Made by a program: the position numbers and the translations under genes | Shown here: positions 5,670-59,197 of the stretch, one piece after another | Position numbering within the stretch: the first letter of the stretch is position 1 | Layout of the letters: each line of letters opens with the position of its first letter | Notes under the pieces: generated by a model | Told to the model about the DNA's origin: nothing | The model's database searches: none | The model's input: only the letters and a program-made list of their open reading frames with translations | Source of the DNA: Tilletiopsis washingtonensis | Taxonomy: Eukaryota > Basidiomycota > Exobasidiomycetes > Entylomatales | NCBI RefSeq assembly: GCF_003144115.1 | Contig: NW_020312004.1 | Location: 242,269 to 306,268 of the forward strand | DNA: 64,000 nucleotides | Reading direction: 5' to 3'

Positions 5670-8600
5670 ATGTCCGGCAACGTCAAGGTCGTGTCGCGGT
5701 GAGCTGCAGCAGTCCCACAGCGGCCCATGTACCGCAGCCCACTTACCGCTGCCTAGGTTCCGCCCGCCAAATGCGCTCGAGCTGCGCGAGGGCGGCGACA
5801 TTGTCGTCGACTTTGATGAGGGCGAGAACACGACGGTGAAGCTCAAGCACGGGCCCGCCTCGGGGCCCGAGGCCGGCGGCTTCACCTTCGACCGCGTCTT
5901 TCCCATGGGCACGCGCCAGAAGGATGTGTTTGAGTTCGGCATCAAGGAGACGGTCGATGGTGCGTGTGCCGAGGACGGGGTGGAGGCGTGATGCAGGCCA
6001 GGCTGCGATGAGGCGTGCTGCTCTGCTGACTCGGCGGCCCAGACGTGCTGAATGGATACAACGGCACCATCTTTGCATACGGCCAGACGGGCTCGGGCAA
6101 GACGTTCACCATGATGGTACGCGGCACACGTGGCCAGCTCGCTGCGGCGCGTTGCTGATCTGGCGTGCTCGCAGGGCTCGGACATCGACGACGAGAACCT
6201 CAAGGGCATCATCCCGCGCATCACCGAGCAGATCTTCGACAACATCATGGCCTCGCCGCCGCACCTCGAGTACCTCGTCAAGGTCTCCTACCTCGAAATC
6301 TACATGGAGCGCATTCGCGACTTGCTGGCTCGTGCGTATTGCCGCGCTGGAGCAGCGTGGCGCCGGCGCTGACGGTCACGACGCACAGCGCAAAATGACA
6401 ACCTGCAGATTCACGAGGAGAAGAACAAGGGCGTGTACGTCAAGGGGCTGTCGGACTTCTACGTCGGCGGGCAGGCAGACGTGTATGAGATCATGCGGCA
6501 GGGTGGCTTGGCGCGGGCGGTGTCGTCGACGAGTGAGTGGCGCAGATTGGCCTGGATTTGGACGCGGCCGCTCACGTCGTGCATTCAGACATGAACGCCG
6601 AGTCGTCGCGCTCGCACTCGATCTTCCTCGTGACGATCCAGCAGCGCAACACCGAGACAGGCTCGCAGAAGACGGGCAACCTGTACCTCGTCGACTTGGC
6701 AGGCTCGGAGAAGGTCGGCAAGACGGGCGCCAGTGGCCAGACGCTGGAGGAGGCGAAGAAGATCAACAAGAGTCTGAGTGCACTCGGCATGGTCATCAAT
6801 GCGCTGACCGACGGCAAAGTGAGCTTCGCGCTGATGGCATGCGCTGGCCGAGCTGACACGAGCCCTCTGCAGTCATCACATATTCCGTACCGCGACTCGA
6901 AGCTCACGCGCATCTTGCAAGAGTCATTGGGCGGCAACTCGCGCACGACGCTGATCATCAACTGCTCGCCCTGCGCCTTCAACCAGGACGAGACGATCTC
7001 GACGCTGCGCTTCGGCGTGCGCGCCAAGTCGATCAAGAACAAGGCGCGCGTGAATGCCGAGCTGTCGCCTGCCGAGCTCAAGGCGCTCCTGAAGAAGGCG
7101 CAGGTCGATGCTGCGCGGTACCAGAACTACATTGCCGCTCTCGAGGGCGAGCTGAAGCAGTGGCGGGCCGGCGGGACAGTGCCAGAGAGTGACTGGGCGG
7201 AGGTCGGCAAGGTCGCCGCGGGCGCAGAAGGGCTCGCTGCACCTGCCGCTGCGCGGTCAGCAACGGCCTCGCCCTCGGTGCGGCCACAGACGCCTGCGAT
7301 CGAGGCCTTGCTGCGCGAGGGCAGCTCGCGGCCCGACACGCCGACCTCCAGCACGCTGGACAAGGACGAGCGCGACGAGTTCCTGCGGCGCGAGAACGAG
7401 CTGCAAGATACCATCGCCAAGCTCGAGAACGAGCTGGAGGATGTCAAGGCGGCGGAGCGCATTGCCCGCGACGAGCTCTCGTCTGCGCGCGAGCAGGAGC
7501 AGTCGGGCAAGGAGATGTCGCAGCGCCTCGAGGAGTGCAAGCTCGAGCTCGACAGCGTGCGGCACAAGCTCAAGGAGGCCGAGATCCTCAACGACGTGCA
7601 CGCCGACAGCATCCGCGAGCTGACGGTGGACGTGGACGAGCTGCGCAAGGCGGCGTCCGAGTCGACGCGCAACGCAGCCGGCGCAGCGGGCGCACGGGAT
7701 CCGGGACACGAGGGCAAGGAACGCAAGAAGGCCGAGCGCATGGCCAAGATGATGGCCGACTTCAACGCCGGCATCGTGTCGGAGAAGGAGGAGCAGATCC
7801 GCGAGACGCTGGCCAAGCTCGAAATCGCCAGCGGCATGGGCACGGGCGCCGACGGCACACTTTCTGCAGACGACATCTCGACGCTGCGCGAGCAGCTGCT
7901 CGAGTCGCAGACGCTGGTGCGCGAGCAGCACGAGCGCGTGCGGCAGGTGCAGGACGAGAACGAGCTGCTGCTGCAGCGGCGCGACGAGATGGAGGCGCGC
8001 CTCGCCACGCTCGAGGCCGAGTACGAGGAGCTGCTCGACAAGACGTACCACGACGGGCAGGACGCAGGCACTGCGGGCATCAACGATGCCATGCTTGAGC
8101 TGCGCGGCAAGCTGGAGGACCAGTACGCGAGCCGGCGCGAGGCGCAGGCCAGCGAGATTGCGGACCTCAAGAAGCAGCTCGAGCTCAAGGCGCAGGAGCG
8201 TGCCAGCATGCAGGCCGCCAACGACGCGCTGCGCTCGACCAACGACGAGCTCAAGCGCGCCTTTGCCGTCACGGCCGCCGCGGCCGAGGGCGGCAAGGAC
8301 CTGGCAGAGAGCGCGCGCGAGATGGAGCGTGTGCGCAAGACGATGGCCACGCAGCTGTCCGAGTTCGACAACATGAAGAAGAGCCTCATGCGCGACCTGC
8401 AGAACCGCTGCGAGAAGGTGAGCGGGCGTCCGAGGCGCACGAGAGCGTGCCTGTGCTCATCACCCGTGCCCGCAGGTCGTCGAGCTGGAGATCTCGCTCG
8501 ACGAGTCCAAGGAGCAGTACAATAACGTCATCCGTAGCTCCAACTCCAAGGCGCAGCAGAAGAAGATGCACTTCCTCGAGCGCAACCTGGAGCAGCTGAC

Positions 8601-9760: not shown

Positions 9761-10207
9761 ATGTCGCTCCTCCGTGCCTCGTTCCGCGCCCAGCGCGTCG
9801 TCGCCATGCGCCCCGCCGCCGTGCGCGCCTACGCCAACGGCCCCATCGACAAGGCCTTCAACCAGGCCGAGGCGTCGCAGGGCAAGGCGCAGGCCGAGTA
9901 CGGCAAGCAGACGGGCAGCACCGAGCACCAGGTCCGCGGTGAGTGCGGGCGCGCGCTTCTGGCAGAGCACTCTGCGCAATCGAGCTGACGCACACACCTG
10001 CAGGCAAGGCGCAGGAGCTCAAGGGCGAGGCCAAGAAGATGGGCAACGACGCCGCAAAGGAGGGCGAGGGCATCGTCGACTCGGCGTCCAAGTGAGCAAC
10101 GATTCCTGCATGTGCTGCACCGGCCGTGGCTCACCTCTCTGCGCAGCGCCTTCGGCAAGGTCGCCCAGAAGGCCAGCGAGCTGCTCGGCGGCGAGAAGAA
10201 GCCCTAA
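9761..10207 (+). CDS. Small mitochondrial-type CsbD/LEA-like stress protein
   Basis: Exons 9761-9938, 10004-10091 and 10147-10207 encode 108 aa. The first about 25 residues (MSLLRASFRAQRVVAMRPAA, ending RAYA) are Arg/Ala-rich without acidic residues, a typical cleavable mitochondrial presequence. The mature part is very hydrophilic with Lys/Ala/Gly/Glu repeats such as GKAQELKGEAKK and GKVAQKASELLGG, the pattern of CsbD-like and LEA-type proteins, which accumulate under stress or in stationary phase and are largely disordered or helical. Its exact biochemical role is unknown. The start was chosen for the presequence and the purine-free, C/A-rich leader ending in TTCACC before ATG. The 3' end faces the long SANTA-domain gene, 200 bp away. 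Confidence 0.75.
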
Positions 10208-10407: not shown

Positions 10408-13400
10408 TCAGTCGGAGAAGTCGTACGCATCGGCAGCCATCTCGGACGGGTCTGCAATGGCGAACGTGATGCCGCCGGCGCTGCGCGTCATCGAGGCTGC
10501 CGCTGGCGCTTTCGGGCGCGCCGGGCTCTTGCCGCCGTCGGCCTTGCGTGGCGTGGCAGTCGTCGGCGCCTTTCTGTCGCCGCTCTGGCTTCGTCGTCGC
10601 TTGGCAGACGAGGTGGTGGAAGTGCTTGAGCTCGGCCGCGACTGCACAGATCGACCGTTCGTCGAGCGAGCAGACGCGCCAGCACGGCCGTCATCTGGCG
10701 AGCTCAAGTCGGAGTCGGAGGCGTCCGACGCGGATGGGCGAGGCACGCTGCTGCGAGCTTTCGGTCGTGACTGCGGAGCCGAGACGACACGGGCCTTGAT
10801 TTCGCTCGTCTTCCTGGCAGCAGCTGTGCTCGGCGAGGCCAGGGTGCTCGAGACGCTCGCCTGTGCCTTGACCGGCGCCAGACTGCTGCGGGCGGTCGCT
10901 CGTGCAGGCATCGGCGAGCCCGACACTTCCCACCAGCGACCCACGCCGTTGGAAGCACGAGCCCGCACAGGCCGCCCGCTGCGTTGCGCAGCCGCCTTGC
11001 TGGCCTCTGGCTCGGAGGCGTCCTCCTCCTCCTCGTCCTCATTCGCGCGCTTCGGGTCAGACGAAGCGGGCTCATCTTGCATGGCCCGCCGCACGACGCC
11101 GATGACGCCGAACGCCGTTCGTCCGAGGTTCGCGACCTCGCGTGAGATGCCCTTGGGCGTCGTGCCGGCGCTGGCACGTCGGGAGACGGTCACCTTCTTG
11201 CGAGGCCGAGGTCGAGATGCAGCGGCCGGAGACCTTGTCGGTGCGTCCGAGCCTGCGGCCGGCGAGGTGGCTCGTGCCGGCTCAGTCGCGGAGGCGGTCG
11301 TCTCACGAGCAGAGGCAATTGAAGCAGCTGGCACCTTCTCGACAGCTGGCTTGGAGGGGACTTGTACCTCCGGCGAGCGCGGCGGACCGATGGCACCGTC
11401 CACCTCGTCATCCGACACGGCCTTGTTGCTCGTCGCGATGTCGGCGGGGGAATCGTGCGCCGTAGCAGGGACCTGCTCGTCGTGTGGCGGGAGCAGCGCC
11501 TGCGGCTCCAGTGCCGCTACCGGCTCGTGCGCGTCGACTTGACTGCTCGCCTCTGCGGCTGCAGCTTGAGAACTGCTCACGCCAGTCCGACCCGCAGAAT
11601 GGGATGCTGCCGGCTCAACCTGTTCTTCGGACTGCAGCTGCTCCGATGGCGCCGCGACAGGCGCTGTCGCAGGGAGTGAAGCGTCTCCGTGCGAAGCAGA
11701 CTTGCCTCGTGCTTGAGCTACTTCGTCCTCTTGCGCCTCTGCAGGCGCAAGGCTGCGCTCTGGCACATCTGTGTCCGCGATCCAGCCCACAGGCCCGCTG
11801 ACGTTGCCGGGCACGATGATCGAATCGTCGGCGCCCAGCCCACCGAGATCATCCGAATCGTCGCCAAAGTCGTCGATTGGTGGCATGTCGGCATCAAGGT
11901 CGTGCTGCTGCGGCAGAGGAGGCGGTGCAAAGTGCGCAACATGCGGGCGTGGGGCGGAAGTGCTGGCTTCCGATTGGCGAGCCTTGCTCTTGCCCGTCAA
12001 AGTGCGCGGCTTCTTCGAGCCCGTCGGATCGCTGGCATGACGCTGGATCTTGCTTGCCGAGCCAGACGTGCTGGAGCCCGCGTTGTCGCTTCGTCGGCGC
12101 GCAGCCGGCACACGCTTGGGCTTGCGCGGCGTGGGCACGTACGCCTCGTGCTTGTCCGAGTCGTCCTCCGACTCGCGCGGACTCGACTGGTCGTGTTGCT
12201 CCTCGTCGCTTGACTGCTCTGGCTCCTCGATCTGCGCCTTGCTCTGAGCTTGCGGCTTCGCTCGGCTCATAGCATGGCGGCTGTCCGAGTCTCGCGACCG
12301 GTCTTCGTCTGGCCTGGCCTTCTTGACCGAAGGGGGCCTATCGCGGCCTGCGTCGCCCAGCTGCGGCTTCTCAGGACTCTCCGGGCTGGATGGCGGTAGC
12401 ACCGAGTCGCGAGGGCGCTTGCGCGCACCCGCTTTGATCGGTCGCTGCGAAGGCGATGGGAGACCTTCGACTCGACCTTCCGGCTCTGACCGCGTGCGTG
12501 CAGTCGCAGGACGAGTGCTGCTGGGCTTCGCGTCACTCGGTGCTGACGGCAGCTTCGATGACGGACCGGCTTCCTGCCGCACTGCCGTTGCGATCGCATG
12601 AGCTTGAGGCTTCTTGCGACTGGCCGCTGCCGAGCTTCGTCCCGCCTTCGAGGTGCGATCAAGAGCTGCAGCAGCGGCGACATCGGCAGTGCCGACTTTG
12701 CTGTCCGCCATCTCCTCAGCGAGCGTCTTCTTAGTAGCCGACGAGCCCTTAGAAGCACGGCTTCTCTTCTTCGGCTCCGAAGGACCAGCTGCCGCCTCTT
12801 CGCCTGCCTCGGCGTCTGCGGGCAGCCCGGCGCTGGCGACACTCCTCCGAGACGCTGCGAGCTTGGCCTGGCGCGCACGTGCCTCCTGTTGAGCAATGTC
12901 GTGCGCCGCCAGATGGACCCAGTCGTCCGGGAAGCCGTCGGCGAAGTGCTCGCACAGCTCGGCGCTCCAGCCGTTGTGCATCGAGATGCGCTTGGCCATC
13001 GGGCCGAGTAGAAGGTAGCGGCTGCCGCTTGCCGTCAGCACGGTGGTGGGATCTTGTCGTCGCACGACCAGAGAGGAGTGCCATTGCTCCTCGCCGCCGT
13101 CTGGCTTCCTCACGGTGCCCTCGACGTACAGCCAGTGCCGCAGACCAAGCTCAGAGATGCCGAGCGAGGAAGACGGCTTTCCGGGGGCGGCCGTGAGGAA
13201 CCACGAGCGCAGCTCGACTGCAGGCTTGGGTGGAGCTTCAGGTCGAGTCGCGACGCGAGCGCTCGAATCTGCGTGCTGTAGTGGAGCTACAGATGGCTCC
13301 GCCTCGGATGGCGGCGCCGCTGGCGCTGTAATCGCAGGCGTAGACGTCGGCTCAGAGCGTAGGGTTGGCTCGACGAGAGCAGCCGGCGGTGAAGCCGGCG

Positions 13401-14893
13401 GCTGCGGAGCGGAGGGCACGTCGGCGAGAGGAAGCGCCGCCGCCAGAGCTTGACCTTCTGGTGCATTTTGCGGCTCCGACGCCGAGGTCACGTCCGCCAC
13501 GGATGACAGCGGGGCCGAACGCTCTCGCAGCGGAAGCACGCCTCGGGCGACTAGCTCTGCTGTCTCGGAAGGAGCCACCAGCGCCTGCGGCGGCGACGCA
13601 TCTGGCAGCTGCAGTGCAGCAGGCTCGGACTGCGCCGCCTGCTCGGCTGGCAGCAGGTCGGATAGAATTGCCGACGCGCCAGCGATTGGTGCTGCGTCTG
13701 CCTGCGTCATGTGCACATCCTGCGGCGCATCGTCTTCGCCAGGATCGATCGGCTGGTTCGCGACATGTAGCGCCGGGCCGTCATGTAGCATCGCTTGCTC
13801 TGCACCGCCTGGTTCATCGGCGATGTCTTGTCGGTCAGCGACTGCCAGAGCAGGCTCGTCGAGCTGGACAATGCGGGCCTGCGAGCCGCTCTGCTCTCGG
13901 TCCGGCGGTTGAGAGTGCGCCTCGGAGCCTAGCGCTGGCGCTTCTGCTCCAGGCGGCCCCGGCGGCTGTATGTGCTGCTCGCTCGCTACACACAGCGGAG
14001 CGCTGGATGCTTCGCCGGCGCGCGAGTGCTCGTATGGCTGCCGGATGGAAGCAGACCGACCAGGACTCGAAGGCGCCTGCATCGCGGCCGGTCGTCTGCC
14101 AGTCGCGCCGGCAGGACTGACGAGGACGCTGGCTCCACGCAGCACCGAGGGCGCCGCGCTGGGCCCCCGACTGGCAGCGCTGCTGAGCAGAAAGTCGAGG
14201 TCGCTCTTGCTGATGTGCGGCCCCGCTGTTCTGCTGCTGCCGGATGCAGGCGCGGCGCCGCTGACCGGGCGGACAGAGCTTGGCCGCGAGGGCCCAGCAG
14301 CCCAGCGCGTGGGCGGTGCGGCAGCTACGACGCGCGGCTCTGAGGAGCCTGAGCGGTCGTCCGAGCCCGGCGGTGCAGAGAGCAGACGCGACATGGCGCG
14401 TGTATATGCCTGCGCAGGTAAGGAAGACGGCTTGAGCGCTGCAGCACTCGAGAGGCCGACTGTCAGCTGCACTCACCTCTGGCATAGGGCTCCCAGCGAA
14501 CGGTCCATCGGCGAAGCGGCGCGGCGGGCCCGGCGGCGGCATGATGGAGCTGTGCGCCGCCGGCGGGCGGGGCCGCTGTGGCGCATCGCGGTGCTGCTGC
14601 GCTGCATAGTGCGCCGGCGGAGCATGCGAGTATGGCGCATGGCTCGGCAGCGAGCGAGTCCTGTCCGCGCCAGGCCGGTGGCTGCGCTGCGCCCAGGGAT
14701 GCGCCGGTGCCGCTGCGGCCGAGGCGGCGGCGTGCGAGGGGCGTGCAGCGCTCGGCCCGGCGCGGGCAGAGGTGTCTTGCGCATCAGCGCCAGGCGAGTG
14801 CGCTGAAGAGCGTACCGATGGGCCGGCGACGGCGCCATGGGGCCGCTGAGGCGGCGCATACTCGCGCTCGCCGCGGTCGTTGTAGCGCGACAT
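10408..14893 (-). CDS. SANTA-domain protein, candidate KNL2/Mis18BP1-type centromere factor
   Basis: Two exons, 14477-14893 and 10408-14409, give a mostly disordered 1472-aa protein rich in Ser, Ala, Pro and acidic/basic tracts. One folded region stands out at about residues 537-640 (bases about 12900-13220): LRSWFL, a YVEGTV strand, EEQWHSSLVVRR, SRYLLLGPM and HFADGFPDDW. This is the SANTA signature (SANT-associated domain, W-F-L start, GxxxxxxxWHSS core, FxxGFPxxW end) found in KNL2/Mis18BP1, which helps deposit the centromeric histone CENP-A. Near residues 1282-1300 a basic stretch RSGRPVRARA is followed after a short gap by RWWEVSG, loosely like the CENPC-k motif of KNL2 proteins. Many Lys/Arg-Pro tracts could bind DNA. 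No Myb/SANT domain is visible. The domain call is fairly firm; the centromere role is inference from family. It is divergent from the PITH gene. Confidence 0.8.
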
Positions 14894-15415
14894 GGCGTGC
14901 AGGGAGCTCTGAGCGACGCGTCGCGGCGACGGAGCGCGAGGAGAGGTGTGCTGCGGCACAGGCGCGAGGAGAGGTGTGTTGCGGCACAGGCGCGCGCGAG
15001 GAGCCGGGCCGCGACGGGGTGGCGGCACGCCTGCTGGACGCGGCGACGTGGAGTTCTGCGGACAGCGAGAGGGGGACGTGATGGGGCCGGCGCGATGGAG
15101 CGGCAGCCTCGACGCCGGCGAGGCCACGGCGAGGCGAGTGCGCGTTGTGGTTGTGGTGCGCGTCTCAGGCTCGCCGTGACGCGTAGAGAGCTGCGAGTGC
15201 GACTGCGGCGTTTGGCGCCCGTCCGCTGAGCTCGTGCATCTGCGCCCGATGCGCACGGAGCACCCCGTGAGAGCGGCCTCGTCAGCGCTGCGCGAAATGC
15301 GAAAGTCATGCTCAGGCCCACTTCAGGGTCCGCAGCTGCACTCCACCTGGGCTCTTGACCACATCATCTCGGTTCCAACGTCGAGCAGCGCCCTCTCTCC
15401 GCGCCCGCCGCCGGC
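14894..15415. promoter_or_regulatory. Divergent intergenic region between SANTA-domain and PITH genes
   Basis: 522 bp between two starts in opposite orientation. It is GC-rich. An imperfect tandem repeat of about 25 bp around 14939-14990 (AGGCGCGAGGAGAGGTGTG-type units) lies close to the SANTA-domain start. No other recognisable motif was seen, and I support no gene here. Confidence 0.4.
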
Positions 15416-16597: not shown

Positions 16598-18442
16598 TCA
16601 TGCCTTCTTCGACTTCTTCTTCGACGCCTTCTCCACCTTAGCGACCGACTCGTCGCCCGGGACGCCGCCGTCGCTCTGAGCCGCTGCCTTGGCAGCCTTT
16701 TTGGCAGCCTTCTTGGCGGCCCGCTCGATCTCGGCAGCGTCGGCGCCGCCGCTGCTCTTCTTCTTCTTGTCCTTCTTCTCCTTCTTTGCCTTCTTCTCCC
16801 GCTTGGCGTCTGCCGGGTCGACCACGCCGACGGCCGCCGGCATCGTGACGGGCTCGGCCATCGTCTCGTCGCCCTCGTCGTCGCTGTCGTCCTCGTCCAT
16901 GAGGTCGCCGGCGGCCTCCTCGATGGCCCGCAGCGCCTTGCTCATGGCGTCCGAGTTCTTGCCGAGCGTGGCCTTGCCCGTCTCGTAGAACGCCAGGCGC
17001 TCCTCGACCTGCATGTGCAGCACCTCGCCGAACTTGGTCGTCGGCGCGTCGCTGAAGCAGTCGATGCGCGACGCAATCGAGATCTTGTTGGCAAGGAAGC
17101 GCGACATGCGGCCCTTGTTCTTGGGCGCCGCACGGGCGATGGCCGAGGCGTGGTAGATGAGGCCGTACTTGGGCGTGTTGCCCTTGGTCTTGAGCGCGCG
17201 GAAGAGCGCCTTCTCGGCACCCAAGATCTGCACCGTCGAGGCGGGGTACTTGGCCAGGTTCGTGAGCGAGCCGGCGTGCGAGATGAGGCGTGCGCCGATG
17301 ACCTCGCCGATCAGGGCGGCGAGCTGCATGGTCTGTCAGCGCCGCACTGCAGGCCAGCACGCAACACGCCACTCACGTTCGGTGCGACGAGGTGCATCTT
17401 CTCAATCAGGTACTTGTGCATGCGCTTGCGGTACGCGGCAAGCTCCACGACACGCTGCGCGAACGAGTCGATGTTGTCCATGTCGACCTCGCCGATCTCG
17501 GTGCCCATGCTCGCGCGGCTGGCGTCGAGCACGTTGCGCGCGGCCGTCTCGTCGCCGGCGAGAATGTCGGTGAGCTCCTCGACGTGCTCGTCGGTGAGAC
17601 GCTCCTTGTTGCGGATGAACGAGGCGAGCTGCGCGTACGTCATGTTGTCGGGCACGAGACGCACGAGCTCGGGGAAGTGCCAGCCGTACCACTCGCGCAC
17701 GCGCATGGCAAACGTGTTGACGTCTTTGTCGAGCGTGTCGAGCAGGGCAATGGCCTGGATGATCATGTTGTCCGAGCGGTTCACGTTGAACTTCACCTTG
17801 CTGCGCGAGTACGAGTGGCCGAGGCCGAGCTGTGCGCGCGACATGTCGCCCTCGGACAGGCCCGAGAGCAGCTTCTCGCTGTGCAGGCGGATGCCGCGGA
17901 TGAGCTCGAGCGTGCGGTCGCCCGTGTCGCACTGGATGCCCAGCTCGCCGACGATGGCGCTGGCGAGGCCGCGCTCCGAGACGCCGAGCGTGACGCCCTT
18001 GGCCTTCTTGCCCGCGGGCGCCAGGTTGAGCGTGAGGAGCGACTTGAGGCCGTCATTGAGTACGCCTGCGATGAACGCGGTCAGCGCACGGCTCTGTGCC
18101 GGCTGCCAGCAAGGCACTGGAGGCAGCGAGACGCTCGCACGCCCTGCCGGCGCCCACGTGCAGCCCCATGCCTGGGCTGCGCTGCAGAGCGGCACCGCCT
18201 GCCCGCCTCTCTCCCGACTGCCACTCACCCTCGGAAATGTCAAGACAGCTCTGCAGCGCATCGAGGGCGTTCTTGAAGGGCGCAAATGAGACGAGCTTCA
18301 CCATGCGCGAGAAGGCGTTGAGGTCCTTGATGCTCTCCTGCACGGCGGCCGTCTTGCTGCCGATCTCCTCGACCTGCAGCGTCTGGAAGACGGCGCAGCC
18401 GGTGGCGCACTCGAAGAGCAGGTGCGTGGGCGCTCCGCTCAT
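16598..18442 (-). CDS. NOP56: Box C/D snoRNP core protein NOP56
   Basis: Core subunit of box C/D snoRNPs, which guide 2'-O-methylation of rRNA, and part of the early pre-rRNA processome in the nucleolus. Exons 18229-18442, 17377-18065 and 16598-17323 give 542 aa (yeast 504). The N-terminus PTHLLFE-TGCAVFQ distinguishes it from NOP58. Further on are [13 protein letters not shown]-like [20 protein letters not shown], the NOSIC-region [18 protein letters not shown] and the Nop-domain block [47 protein letters not shown]. The tail has an acidic stretch and then lysine-rich [10 protein letters not shown] repeats, as in other fungal NOP56 proteins. Exon 3 could also start 9 nt upstream, but the conserved NLxxLIGEV favours 17323. 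It shares a 388-bp divergent promoter region with SCL1. Confidence 0.96.
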
Positions 18443-53632: not shown

Positions 53633-56600
53633 ATGAACTCGATCTTCGGGCGCAACAAGACGCGGCCGCGCGGCGACACCAATGGCACGGACAGTGCTGG
53701 CGGGCTGGGCGCCGCGTATGGCACGGCAGAGGTCATCGGCAGCAGCTCGGGCGCGCGCATGCAGATCGGCAACCCAACGGGCTTCCAGCACAATGGCGGC
53801 GCATTCGTGAGTAGCCCGGCTGCGTAGAGGTGGCTTGCCTGCTTCCGAGTGCACGCTGAACCGCGCCGGCCGGCCGCCAGATGCAGATGGGCGGCGACCC
53901 GCGCGCCAGCACGTCGTCTCGCGCGCCGCGCGCCAGCCACGACGATGACTTTCGGCCATACGGCGCACCTGCCGCGGCCTCGCCGAGCAAGGGCGGCTCG
54001 CACACGCGCACGGCGTCGAGCGCCTCCTCTGCCATGACGCAGAGCTCGCGCTACGCGCCTTCGGGCTTCTCCGTGCCGACGGACTACGGACGGGTGGGCG
54101 CCGAGCATCTGCCCGGCCACAGCGGCGCCGAGATGGGCACGCGCTCGTCGCGCTACACGTCGTCGTCTTCGCACTCGACCGAGCGGCGCGGGCCGGTCTC
54201 GTCGCACGCCTCGGACATCCTGCATCGCATGAGCATCTCCAGTGCCGCCTCGGCATCGCTGGCGCAGCCCATGTGGAACACCGAGCACCACCACCAGCAC
54301 ACACCCGCCATGCCGCCGCGCTCCGGCGAGGGCGCCTCGAGCTCGTTGCACGGCAGCATGCACTCGGTGCAGGGCACGGGCGTCTCGGGTGCCAGCGGGC
54401 CAAGCAGCGGCTCGGGCGCGGGCGGCTTCCACTTTCCGCGGCCCGACGACGAGGAGCTGTCGCGCATGTTCTACGAGCTCATGCAGCAGCGCGACTTCCT
54501 CAACGTGCCCGGCGGCACGCTGCCCGACGAGCTCAAGGAGACGGCGTTCCGCAACATGCAGAACTTCCCCGCCGAGAAGAAGTGGCAGCTCGTGTACAAC
54601 AGCAAGCTGACGGAGTGGCACGCCGAAAAGGAGCGCGAGCGCAACCGGCGCCAGGCCGGCACGGGCGCGCACGGCGCCAGCGGGCCCGGCGCGGCGGGCA
54701 TGGTCATCACGCGCAACTCGCCCGAGTGGTTCATCAAGAAGTTCATGGACGGCACCGTCACGACGAAGCACATCGAGAGCCTGGCAGTGACGCTGCGCAC
54801 GTGCGCAATCGGCTGGATCCAGAGCTTCGTCGAGAGCAAGGGCACGCCCGTGCTCGCCAGCTTCCTCAACGGCCTGCACTCCAAGGGCCACAAGACGGAC
54901 AACGACGTGGCGCTCGAGTACGAGGTGCTCAAGGCGTTCCGCTCGCTCTTCAACTCGAAGCCCGGCGCCAACGATGCGCTGGCGCAGCCCAAGTGCATCA
55001 GCGGCATTGCACACTCGATGGTCTCGACGCACCTGGCGACGCGCAAGCAGGCCGCCGACATCCTGCTCTTTCTCTGTCACTGGGACAAGCCGACGGGCCA
55101 CCGCCTCGTGCTGCGCGGCTTCGACGAGCTGAAGAAGTCGAGCGAGGACCACGGCCGCTTCGACGCCTGGTTCCGCATCCTCGAGCAGACCATCGACGGG
55201 CGCGGCCAGATGGGCAGCCGCGTCGGCGCCAGCGACGAGGTCAAGAAGCTCAGTCTCGGCGGCGGCAACACGGCGGCGGCGCACGAGTCGAGTCTCAACG
55301 AGTACGCCATCAACAACATGTTCCTCGTCAACGCCATTCTGAACCTCGACATTGTGCCCGAGTTCGAGGTGCGCGTGCACCTGCGCAACCAGATGGACGC
55401 GAGCGGCCTGCAGCGCATCCTCATCAAGATGCGCGCCTTCAAGAATCCCGATCTGGACCTGCAGATCGGCGTGTTTGAGAAGGGCGCAGAGGCGGACCAC
55501 GAGGACGTGGTGGAGACGTTCAACCGCGAGGTGCTGACGGACATGTCGGACCCCGTCGACGTCTTCAAGGCCATCGTGGAGAAGGTGTCTGGCTCGCGCG
55601 CATACGACTTCTTCCTCAGTGCCCTGCAGCACCTGCTGCTCATCCGGCAGGACGGCGATGCGCTGGTGCATCACTACCAGCTCATCGACTCGCTCGTCAC
55701 GTCCGTCGTCATGGACCGCAAGGGCGCCGTCGAGAGCAGCGACCTCAGCTCGCTGCTCGGCGTGAGCGTCAACAGCGTGCTCTCGCGCTTTGCCGACCAG
55801 GACCAGCAGGCTGCCACGGCCGCCGAGCTGCAGCGCACCAAGGCCGAGCTGCGCACTGCCGACAAGGAGCGGCAGCGCCTCGAGACGCAGCTCAACGAGA
55901 GCACCGAGGGGCTCGTCGGCGACTTGCAGCAGCAGATCGAGCGCCTCGAGGAAGACCTCTCCGTCGCGCGCGCCAACACATCCGCAGTGCAGGGCGAGAT
56001 GGAGGACATGGAGAAGGCGTACATCGACCGCGTCGTGGCGCTCGAGATTCAGATCCGCGAGCTGTACGACATGCTGCGTGAGGCGCAGCTGGCCGGCGGC
56101 ATTGCAGAGCCCGGCCAGGGCAGCCTGGACCGGCAGCAGCTCGTCGACACGCTCGAGAAGCAGCTGGAGCGCAACCGCACCATCAAGAAGCTCGAGGCCA
56201 ACGCGCGCAAGAAGCCGGTCCCTGCGATGCCCGCGGCGCGCGAGGAAGAGGAGGTCGATGCGCGCAAGCGCATCTCGTCGAGTGTGCGGCGGCAGTCGCA
56301 GCGCAACAGCCGTGCAGCAGCCTCCGCAGCGGGCGACGAGCAGGGCGCAGCGCCGGACACTTCCAGCGACGAGGAGATCGACCCGCACAGCGATGCCGCG
56401 AAGTGGAAGATCCAGGCGACGCTGGCGGCGGGCATGGCCAAGAACGCAGAGCTGCAGAGCCGCATGACGGATGCGCGCGCCACGCGCAGACGCAAGGCCG
56501 ACACGCCAGACGAGGAGCAGGACGCCGATGGCGCCGCTGCGCCTCCGCCGCCTCCGCCGCCGCCGCCACTCCCGCCGTCGGAGGAGGGCACATCGCTGCT

Positions 56601-59197
56601 CGACGAGATTCGCAGGCGGAAAGGCGCGCCCAACCGCACTGCAGCCACTCCGCCGCGCGAGATTGCCGCGGTGCCCATGCCGCCTCCTGCGCCGCCTGCG
56701 CCGGGCGCCATGGGCCCTCCGCCTCCACCTCCTCCGCCTCCGCCGCCGCCGCCACCGCCACCCCCGCCACCGCCGCCGCCGGGAGGCAGCGGCTTTGTGA
56801 CGCCCAGCTCCTCACGCCCGCCCTCGCGAGCGGACGGAGGGCCGCCGCCTCCGCCACCTCCGCCACCGCCGCCGCCGCCCACGCCCGGGCAGCTTGCCGC
56901 GATCCCTGCCACGCCGCCGCCGCCGGCCCTCACGCCCGGCGGCATGTTTGGCACGCCGCCGACGGCGACTCCTGGCGGCGAGAGCTCGCGCGACTCGATG
57001 CTCAACATGCGCGCCAGCTATGCCGGCGACCTGGGCCCCGGTGGCCCGGCGCACGCGCCACCACCGCCGCCCATGGGAGGCTTCTTCGGCCACGCAGCGA
57101 CGCGCAAGGAGGTGCTGGAGCAGGCCAAGGGCCGCATGAAGCAGCTGCAGTGGGACAAGCTGTCGGCGCAGCACGCCGCCGAGACGGTGTGGGGCCGCAA
57201 CACGGCCGACGAGGTGCAGATCACCGAGATGCTGCGCTCGGGCGGTCTCTTCGAGGAGATGGAGGAGGACTTCAAGGCCAAGCAGGTCGCCAAGCGCGCC
57301 ACGGCGGCGCTGGCCAAGAAGGAGAAGCTCGAGTTCAAGACGCACCTGAGCCTGCAGACGCGGCAGGGCATCGAGATGGTGCTGCGCCGCGTCAAGAGCA
57401 GTCTGACCGACGCCAAGCACGCGACGCCCGAGGAGGTGGCGCACCACATTGTCAACTGCGACGAGGCCGTGCTCGACGAGAGCTTCCTCACCGAGCTGCT
57501 GCGCCACTACCCCGAGAGCGAGACCAAGGGCCAGCTGGGCGAGTACCGCAATGCGTCGCACGAGGAGCTGCGCCTGCTGCACCCGGCCGACCGCCTCGTT
57601 GTGCTGCTGATGACGGTGCCGCACCTCAAGGAGAAGGTCAAGGGCCTGCTCTTCATGACGCGCTACCGCGACCTCTTCGACCTCATCAAGGAGGGCTCGC
57701 TGCGCATCCGCGAGGGCGCCGACGGCCTCGTGCAGGCAGAGCACTTTGCCCGCCTCCTCACGCTCATTCTCATGATGGGCAACTATCTCAACGCCACGGG
57801 CGTGCAGGGCGGCGCGTTCGGCTTCAAGATCTCGTCGATCAACAAGCTCGTCGACACCAAGGCCACCGACGGCACCACGCTGCTGCACTTTGTCGAGCGC
57901 ACTATCTCCAAGTGCTTTCCCGAGGTCGAGGAGTTCCTCGACGAGCTGCAGAAGCCGTCCGAGGCGTGCCGCGGTGAGTGGCGGCAGAGTGTGATGGCGG
58001 TGCGCATTGACTGACGCCGCGACTTTGCGCTCCGCAGTGCAACTGCTCGACCTCAAGCGCGACCTGGCAGAGCTCAAGTCGGGCAGCGTGCAGCACAAGA
58101 AGGAGCTCGACCGCTTCCTCGACGAGGCCGAGGAGCGCCTCGAGGATCCGTACACGAAGCTCATGCTGCCGTTCCTCAACGAGGCGCACCAGGATCTGCA
58201 GCGCCTCTCGGACCAGGTGACGTTCACCGAGCGACAGTACGTCGAGGCGCTGCGCTACTTTGGCGAGGGCCCCGATCCGAAGCGCCGCGGCTTCCCGGCC
58301 GTGCAGCCGATGCGCACCGAGGACTTCTTTGGCGTCTTCCGCGAGTTCTGCACGGCCTACCGCAAGGTCAAGAGCGACAATGTGCGCATTGGCGAGCAGC
58401 GTGCCATCGAGGCCAAGCGCCGCGCGGCGGCCGAGGAGCGCGAGCGCGAGCGGCAAGAGGCCCTGGCGCGCAAGGAGGCCGGCGTCGACGACAGTGCGGT
58501 GCTCGAGACGCTGCTGGGCAACCTGCGCTCCGGCGGCGTGGTGCCGAAGCAGAAGCGCAAGGCGCGCGAGCGCGGCGAGGCGCGCCGCTCGGCGGCCAAG
58601 GCGGTGGATGGCTCGCCGGGCGCCGCACCGAGCATCGACGGCAACCCGTCGGACGTCGCCGCGGCCATGCTTGCGCGCCTGCAGGGCAGCGCCGGCGGCG
58701 CCACGACGCCGTCGGCCTCCTCGCGCCCGGTGCGCCGGCGCGACCGCAGAACGGGCGAGCCGCGCGATCGCGACAGCGGACGCACGAGCACCCTCTCGGC
58801 CGCGCCTCTCTCTGCTGCTTCGCTCGACGCCGACGCCGAGGAGCCAGCCACGCCGACGGAGCACGACGCCGTGCAGGAGCGCGACGAGGCGCAGAATGTC
58901 GCACACGAGGAGGAGCACGACGACGAGCTGCCCACGCCGCAGGCCAACGGACACGACGTCGACGACGGCTCGCCCTCGACGCCACGCACGCCCTCGACGC
59001 CCGGCGACGACGGCGCCGACGCACCCCTCTCGGCAGCGCAGCGCGCCTCGGCGCTCATGATGACGCCGGAGCGCACGCGGCAGCAGGCCGCGCTCGACGA
59101 GGCGGCCCTCGAGGCCGACCTCTCTGCCGGCAGCGGCCTGCAGGACTGGGTCGACCCGCACGACCTGTCGGGCTTCAGTGCGGCGTCGCAGGACTGA
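53633..59197 (+). CDS. BNI1: Diaphanous-related formin (Bni1/SepA type)
   Basis: Rho-GTPase-activated nucleator of unbranched actin filaments for cytokinesis and polar growth. Exons 53633-53806, 53881-57973 and 58038-59197 give 1808 aa. After a disordered N-terminus the GTPase-binding/FH3 region starts at about 249 (DEELSRMFYELMQQRDFLNVP) and runs to about 680. A coiled coil follows (about 690-810). FH1 (about 945-1124) has several Pro runs, one of about 22 uninterrupted prolines. FH2 (about 1132-1553) shows LQWDKL, EMLRSGGLFEEMEEDF and LILMMGNYLNATG-GGAFGFKISSINKLVDTK. A typical DAD (VLETLLGNLRSGGVVPKQKRKAR, about 1577-1600) is followed by a disordered end. FH3 plus DAD shows that autoinhibition is conserved. 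Only two introns interrupt 5.4 kb of coding sequence. Confidence 0.96.
56711..56782 (+). repeat. CCN microsatellite in the formin FH1 region
   Basis: A run of about 22 consecutive proline codons (CCT, CCG, CCA and CCC mixed, so not a pure trinucleotide repeat). A similar shorter run lies at about 56842-56880. Such tracts bind profilin in FH1 domains and are prone to length change. Confidence 0.85.

Follow-up and report, generated by a model that had tools for sequence, protein, structure and literature searches.

A SANTA-domain protein of Tilletiopsis washingtonensis as a candidate fungal KNL2/Mis18BP1

KNL2/Mis18BP1 proteins are known from animals and plants, but Schizosaccharomyces pombe is reported to have no ortholog (M18BP1) (PMC7618776, PMC5371998). 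The absence of an obvious one from budding and fission yeast had also been stated in a preliminary description of the DNA considered in this study. That DNA is a 64,000-nucleotide stretch of T. washingtonensis (contig NW_020312004.1, positions 242,269 to 306,268; hereafter the window). It carries one gene with a SANTA domain, here called the SANTA gene, which in our judgment is likely to encode a fungal KNL2/Mis18BP1 with a predicted role at the centromere.

A close comparison is mammalian MIS18BP1, whose SANTA domain has been solved (9r6h). The fungal protein likewise has a SANTA domain with counterparts of human W413, H414, R421, and W467, and its genome likewise encodes Mis18 and Scm3, the HJURP homologue; it differs from the mammalian protein in having no SANT/Myb domain, V at the position of K468, a 13-residue insert, and no recognized N-terminal Mis18-binding motifs. 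Plant alpha-KNL2 has a SANTA domain without SANT, as does the fungal protein (PMC11879092), and the KNL2 of non-mammalian vertebrates also shares the SANTA domain. Both of these are reported to carry a CENPC-like motif, whereas the one candidate in the fungal protein is a loose R-x7-WW segment, which does not pass the motif profile. The CENPC-k motif of KNL2 has been described "in a wide spectrum of eukaryotes" (Sandmann et al. 2017 and Kral 2016, cited in PMC9210943). Plant beta-KNL2 has a SANTA domain too, and like the fungal protein it lacks SANT and a clear CENPC-k motif, but it is 281 aa long (PMC9210943) against 1472 aa, and the Arabidopsis protein has F96 and S97 (PMC13294675) in place of fungal W582 and H583. 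In the fission yeast Mis18 complex (Mis18, Mis16, Eic1/Mis19, and Eic2/Mis20), Mis18 is the closest PDB relative of the T. washingtonensis Mis18, and Scm3 is present in our fungus too; the SANTA protein of T. washingtonensis contrasts with the lack of an M18BP1 ortholog in fission yeast (as given in PMC7618776). The SANT_A domain of Swi3 (Swi/Snf) is a different thing from the SANTA domain.

The SANTA domain and its gene

The gene lies on the reverse strand and is read as follows:

14477..14893, reverse strand: exon 1, encoding residues 1-139, in which Pfam matched nothing
14410..14476, reverse strand: intron of 67 bases with a GTGAGT donor and a GCAG acceptor, read from the sequence
10408..14409, reverse strand: exon 2, encoding residues 140-1472 and ending with the stop codon
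12919..13203, reverse strand: SANTA domain, residues 542-636 (W542 to W636)

The two exons give a product of 1472 aa whose sole stop codon is terminal, in agreement with the length first proposed; no ATG occurs from the start codon back to the in-frame upstream stop at 15325. Pfam SANTA (PF09133) matched this product with E 8e-14 and 52.3 bits (cut-off 21), which bore out the profile search suggested beforehand. No other Pfam domain appeared at E up to 1, and PF09133 is also precomputed for this protein in the protein database. One SANTA match was found genome-wide (18,714,638 bases), and it is the one in this gene. The pattern originally singled out is all present: WFL from residue 542, WHSS from 582, LLLGPM, and FADGFPDDW ending at 636. 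Residues 536-650 are 30% aromatic or aliphatic, against 10-17% in the four other stretches that were examined, a composition that fits the earlier wording "mostly disordered".

G+C content is 67-69% across the four quarters of the window, and long open frames occur on both strands because of it, so a chance likeness or a reading-frame artefact has to be considered. A profile of 49 mammalian rows, taken from 119 relatives listed, scored 23.7 bits (E 3.3e-6) for the protein and 23.9 bits for the exon-2 frame, whereas none of 2000 domain shuffles and none of 647 other window frames (stop-to-stop, 60 aa or more) rose above 0.9 bits. Together with the Pfam match, these controls refute chance for the domain, and we give such an explanation a negligible probability: the SANTA likeness is more than chance. 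A bacterial promoter scan upstream of the gene found nothing and is uninformative for such DNA.

Comparison with human MIS18BP1

When the domain was searched against PDB as a single sequence, human Mis18-binding protein 1 (9r6h) was the best match (E 2.1e-4), and the only other match had E 0.66. In this alignment, which implies that human numbering and that of the chain differ by 132, W582, H583, R590, and W636 align with human W413, H414, R421, and W467. Four of the five human SANTA residues noted in PMC13294675 (W413, H414, R421, W467, and K468) are therefore kept, and K468 is changed. The central pair is located as follows:

13078..13083, reverse strand: W582-H583, at the human W413-H414 positions (9r6h alignment, residues checked)

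According to a proposal by Walstein et al. (cited in PMC13294675), W413 and H414 matter for kinetochore localization. Arabidopsis beta-KNL2 has other residues in place of W413, H414, and K468 (same article) and yet belongs to the KNL2 family. An alignment of 10 MIS18BP1 relatives showed the 13-residue insert in the fungal domain and otherwise few gaps of 1-2 residues; identity with the 49 mammalian rows was 26-32%. A profile comparison against 17 of the relatives gave E 1.1e-7 and probability 94.3 over residues 37-111 of a 121-residue piece. When a chimera of the window and human SANTA sequences was used as the query, 148 of 198 candidates matched at E up to 10; the best 120 of these 148 were the window protein and 119 others with Pfam SANTA, and the named ones were all mammals.

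These comparisons also bear on the form of the protein, which had been described as a reduced, fungus-specific KNL2/Mis18BP1 without a Myb/SANT domain. The absence of Myb/SANT was upheld: with matches admitted up to E 1, Pfam found no such domain in the SANTA protein, and the 11 Myb matches reported genome-wide are all on other contigs. "Fungus-specific" was not supported, as plant KNL2 proteins are likewise reported without SANT (PMC9210943, PMC11879092) and the searches yielded no other fungal sequence for comparison. Because these plant members have no SANT, SANT/Myb is not defining for the whole KNL2/Mis18BP1 family. Nor was "reduced" supported: 1472 aa is not short, and the mammalian proteins listed reach 1180 aa in a search that admitted lengths up to about 1.75 times the 696-aa query.

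Centromere partners and the proposed role

The genome also encodes the partners that a KNL2/Mis18BP1 would need in the route proposed below. Scm3 matched at 36.2 bits (cut-off 24.3). Two pieces of Mis18 lie above the family cut-off; joined, they reached Mis18 of S. pombe at E 1.6e-7 and Mis18-alpha of human at E 3.1e-5 in PDB, with an unrelated repeat protein ranked between them (E 1.4e-5), and the first piece alone gave E 1.6e-5 and 0.0024 for the same two proteins. A third Yippee-Mis18 match, below the cut-off, reads by eye like a Yippee-like protein. CENP-A is encoded as an H3-like core ending RRIRGVWGGMG (frames read by eye). Separately, the core stretch DFITNVYDGTGGAGLRWQSS of this CENP-A (contig C27, near 311890-312168) reads by eye as longer than the DFKTDLRFQSS of the genome's own H3. 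Two pieces matched the CENP-C_C family at 31.2 and 27.5 bits, one of them over the cut-off of 29; weak matches, all below the cut-off, also occurred in 4 of 14 control genomes. Upstream of these pieces stands a canonical CENP-C motif, VRRSGRYRYQPLEYWRGER, which found CENP-C chains in PDB with E down to 2.2e-5 and also gave a weak match to chicken KNL2 (7y7i) at E 0.2. The Zn_clus family, which is typical of fungi, had 28 matches in the genome; like Scm3 and a Mis18 nearest in PDB to that of fission yeast, these agree with the fungal origin of the DNA. CENP-I had no match in the genome, but the controls gave none either; without a working positive control, this null shows nothing. Recurrent loss of parts of the constitutive centromere-associated network (CCAN) in Basidiomycota is described in the Bridgin paper (PMC7794384).

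The profile and residue-level evidence, the guided structure model discussed below, and the partner genes make the protein a good KNL2/Mis18BP1 candidate, as the preliminary description had proposed. From them we infer a centromere function. The SANTA domain and long flexible arms would attach to the centromere, with CENP-C as the likeliest contact, and a tail motif might also bind the CENP-A nucleosome. The protein would then bring in the Mis18 oligomer, which would recruit Scm3 carrying CENP-A and H4, and new CENP-A would be deposited where old CENP-A is already present.

Regions outside the domain, alternatives, and significance

Two candidate motifs were considered in the C-terminal part of the protein:

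10921..10983, reverse strand: tail segment, residues 1282-1302, a loose CENP-C-motif-like candidate (RSGR at 1282-1285, R1290-x7-W1298-W1299)
10411..10437, reverse strand: last nine residues, AADAYDFSD, weakly similar to DYYFSNSD at the end of mammalian MIS18BP1

By eye, the R1290-x7-WW spacing equals that from R522 to W530-W531 of the human CENP-C chain. The last 822 residues hold only three W, a pair of them in the tail segment. In 20000 shuffles of these 822 residues, RSGR.{4,16}[WFY]W occurred in none, R[ST].R.{4,16}[WFY]W in 16, R.{7}WW in 10, and R[ST].R.{4,16}W in 1147, all patterns having been picked after the segment had been seen. PDB searches with the segment and with an altered version of it returned no matches. 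A CENPC-like motif is not defining for KNL2, since it is absent in mammals and in beta-KNL2. The likeness of the terminal YDFSD to mammalian YYFSNSD was rejected as not significant, because 894 to 2164 of 20000 shuffles equaled it, depending on the tail compared.

Several results weigh against the KNL2/Mis18BP1 assignment. No fungal relative that would show conservation was found in three protein searches. The query of exon 2 that included the SANTA region drew 825 candidates, of which the protein itself alone matched at E up to 0.001; that of a 640-residue piece drew 226 candidates and no match at E up to 10; and the chimera search named only mammals among the other proteins in its best 120 matches. 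The database (nr and UniRef entries) is searched through shared five-residue words and with limits on length, so the missing fungal match is weak evidence of absence. At the position of human K468 stands V637. Structure prediction, suggested earlier for comparison with Mis18BP1, supported the assignment when guided and failed from the sequence alone: the model using the 49 mammalian rows was middling (predicted local distance difference test, pLDDT, 61.7) and matched 9r6h in Foldseek at E 9.5e-3 and 8.6e-2, with no match reaching 0.001, and the single-sequence model (pLDDT 46.3) had no M18BP1 among the best 50 of 339 matches. A six-motif CENP-C profile placed the tail segment outside its six best places, and no CENP-C-type motif passed; its best place was matched by 1669 of 3000 shuffles. 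This test is weak, because 111 mammalian proteins, reportedly without the motif, reach up to 17.5 against 10.7 for the fungal protein. A Mis18-binding region was not recognized either, since ungapped mammalian profiles of two N-terminal motifs rated the protein no higher than shuffled sequences, 717 and 1809 of which, out of 2000, did equally well; these profiles are too narrow for excluding such a region. A likeness at residues 133-150 to the mammalian Mis18-binding motifs YESPGKIF and TLTPVKDL was seen by eye and dropped, as the profile did not find it. Lastly, the genome's Mis18 has R, E, and L in alignment with E103, D104, and T105 of human Mis18-alpha, residues that MIS18BP1 adjoins in the human complex (PMC11315898).

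The unrecognized Mis18-binding region, and a Mis18 that is without part of the human acidic cluster, would also fit a protein of KNL2 descent that acts off the centromere in general chromatin regulation, with Mis18 recruited by other means, such as Sad1. Fission yeast offers a precedent, having Mis18 but no M18BP1 and relying on Sad1 (PMC7618776), and Mis19/Eic1 and Mis20/Eic2 have been named possible functional orthologs there (PMC5371998). This explanation is nevertheless unlikely, as the protein has the sole SANTA match found in the genome and keeps the residues tied to kinetochore localization (Walstein et al., cited in PMC13294675). The same unrecognized region could instead mean that CENP-A is loaded without Mis18: SANTA and the tail would bind CENP-C or the CENP-A nucleosome, and Scm3 would be contacted directly or via CENP-C. 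Plants offer a parallel, with KNL2 and no identified Mis18 (PMC13294675). Short binding motifs diverge fast, however, which makes an unrecognized one weak evidence, and the genome that carries the SANTA gene also encodes Mis18; such loading seems very improbable, and a KNL2/Mis18BP1 working with Mis18 is preferred.

Frames near the SANTA gene match a kinesin, a Nop-domain protein, a formin, SDA1, chorismate synthase, and KH-domain proteins (20 frames given of 22 listed after a base-composition filter), and these neighbors give no hint of a centromere gene cluster. Those read more closely are:

6537-8519, forward strand: part of a kinesin motor protein (Pfam E 1.2e-53)
9761-10207, forward strand: small gene whose tail faces that of the SANTA gene; its start and stop codon were checked and its introns guessed, and by eye its apparent product is a basic leader and then a sequence rich in lysine, alanine, and glycine
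16601-18297, reverse strand: two overlapping frames, each with part of a Nop domain, probably a single intron-containing gene of the Nop56/Nop58 type
53860-59194, forward strand: large diaphanous-type formin (GBD, FH3, FH2), its FH2 match split over two frames

No relatives of the SANTA protein turned up when viral and prokaryote contigs were scanned. Among the papers listed, from a partial coverage of the literature, none described a fungal KNL2 in its title or abstract opening, and one may already have been published.

In sum, the fungal SANTA protein would belong to the known KNL2/Mis18BP1 kind, and its value lies mainly in where it was found. Mis18 recruitment in species without M18BP1 has been called unresolved, and Sad1 was then shown to serve in fission yeast (PMC7618776). 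With Mis18 and a SANTA protein present in one fungus, the animal-type arrangement could be tested there by gene removal, and a loss in fission yeast would be suggested. We lean toward the view that some fungi have kept an animal-type licensing step, using Mis18BP1 with Mis18 and Scm3, which is replaced by other means in fission yeast.
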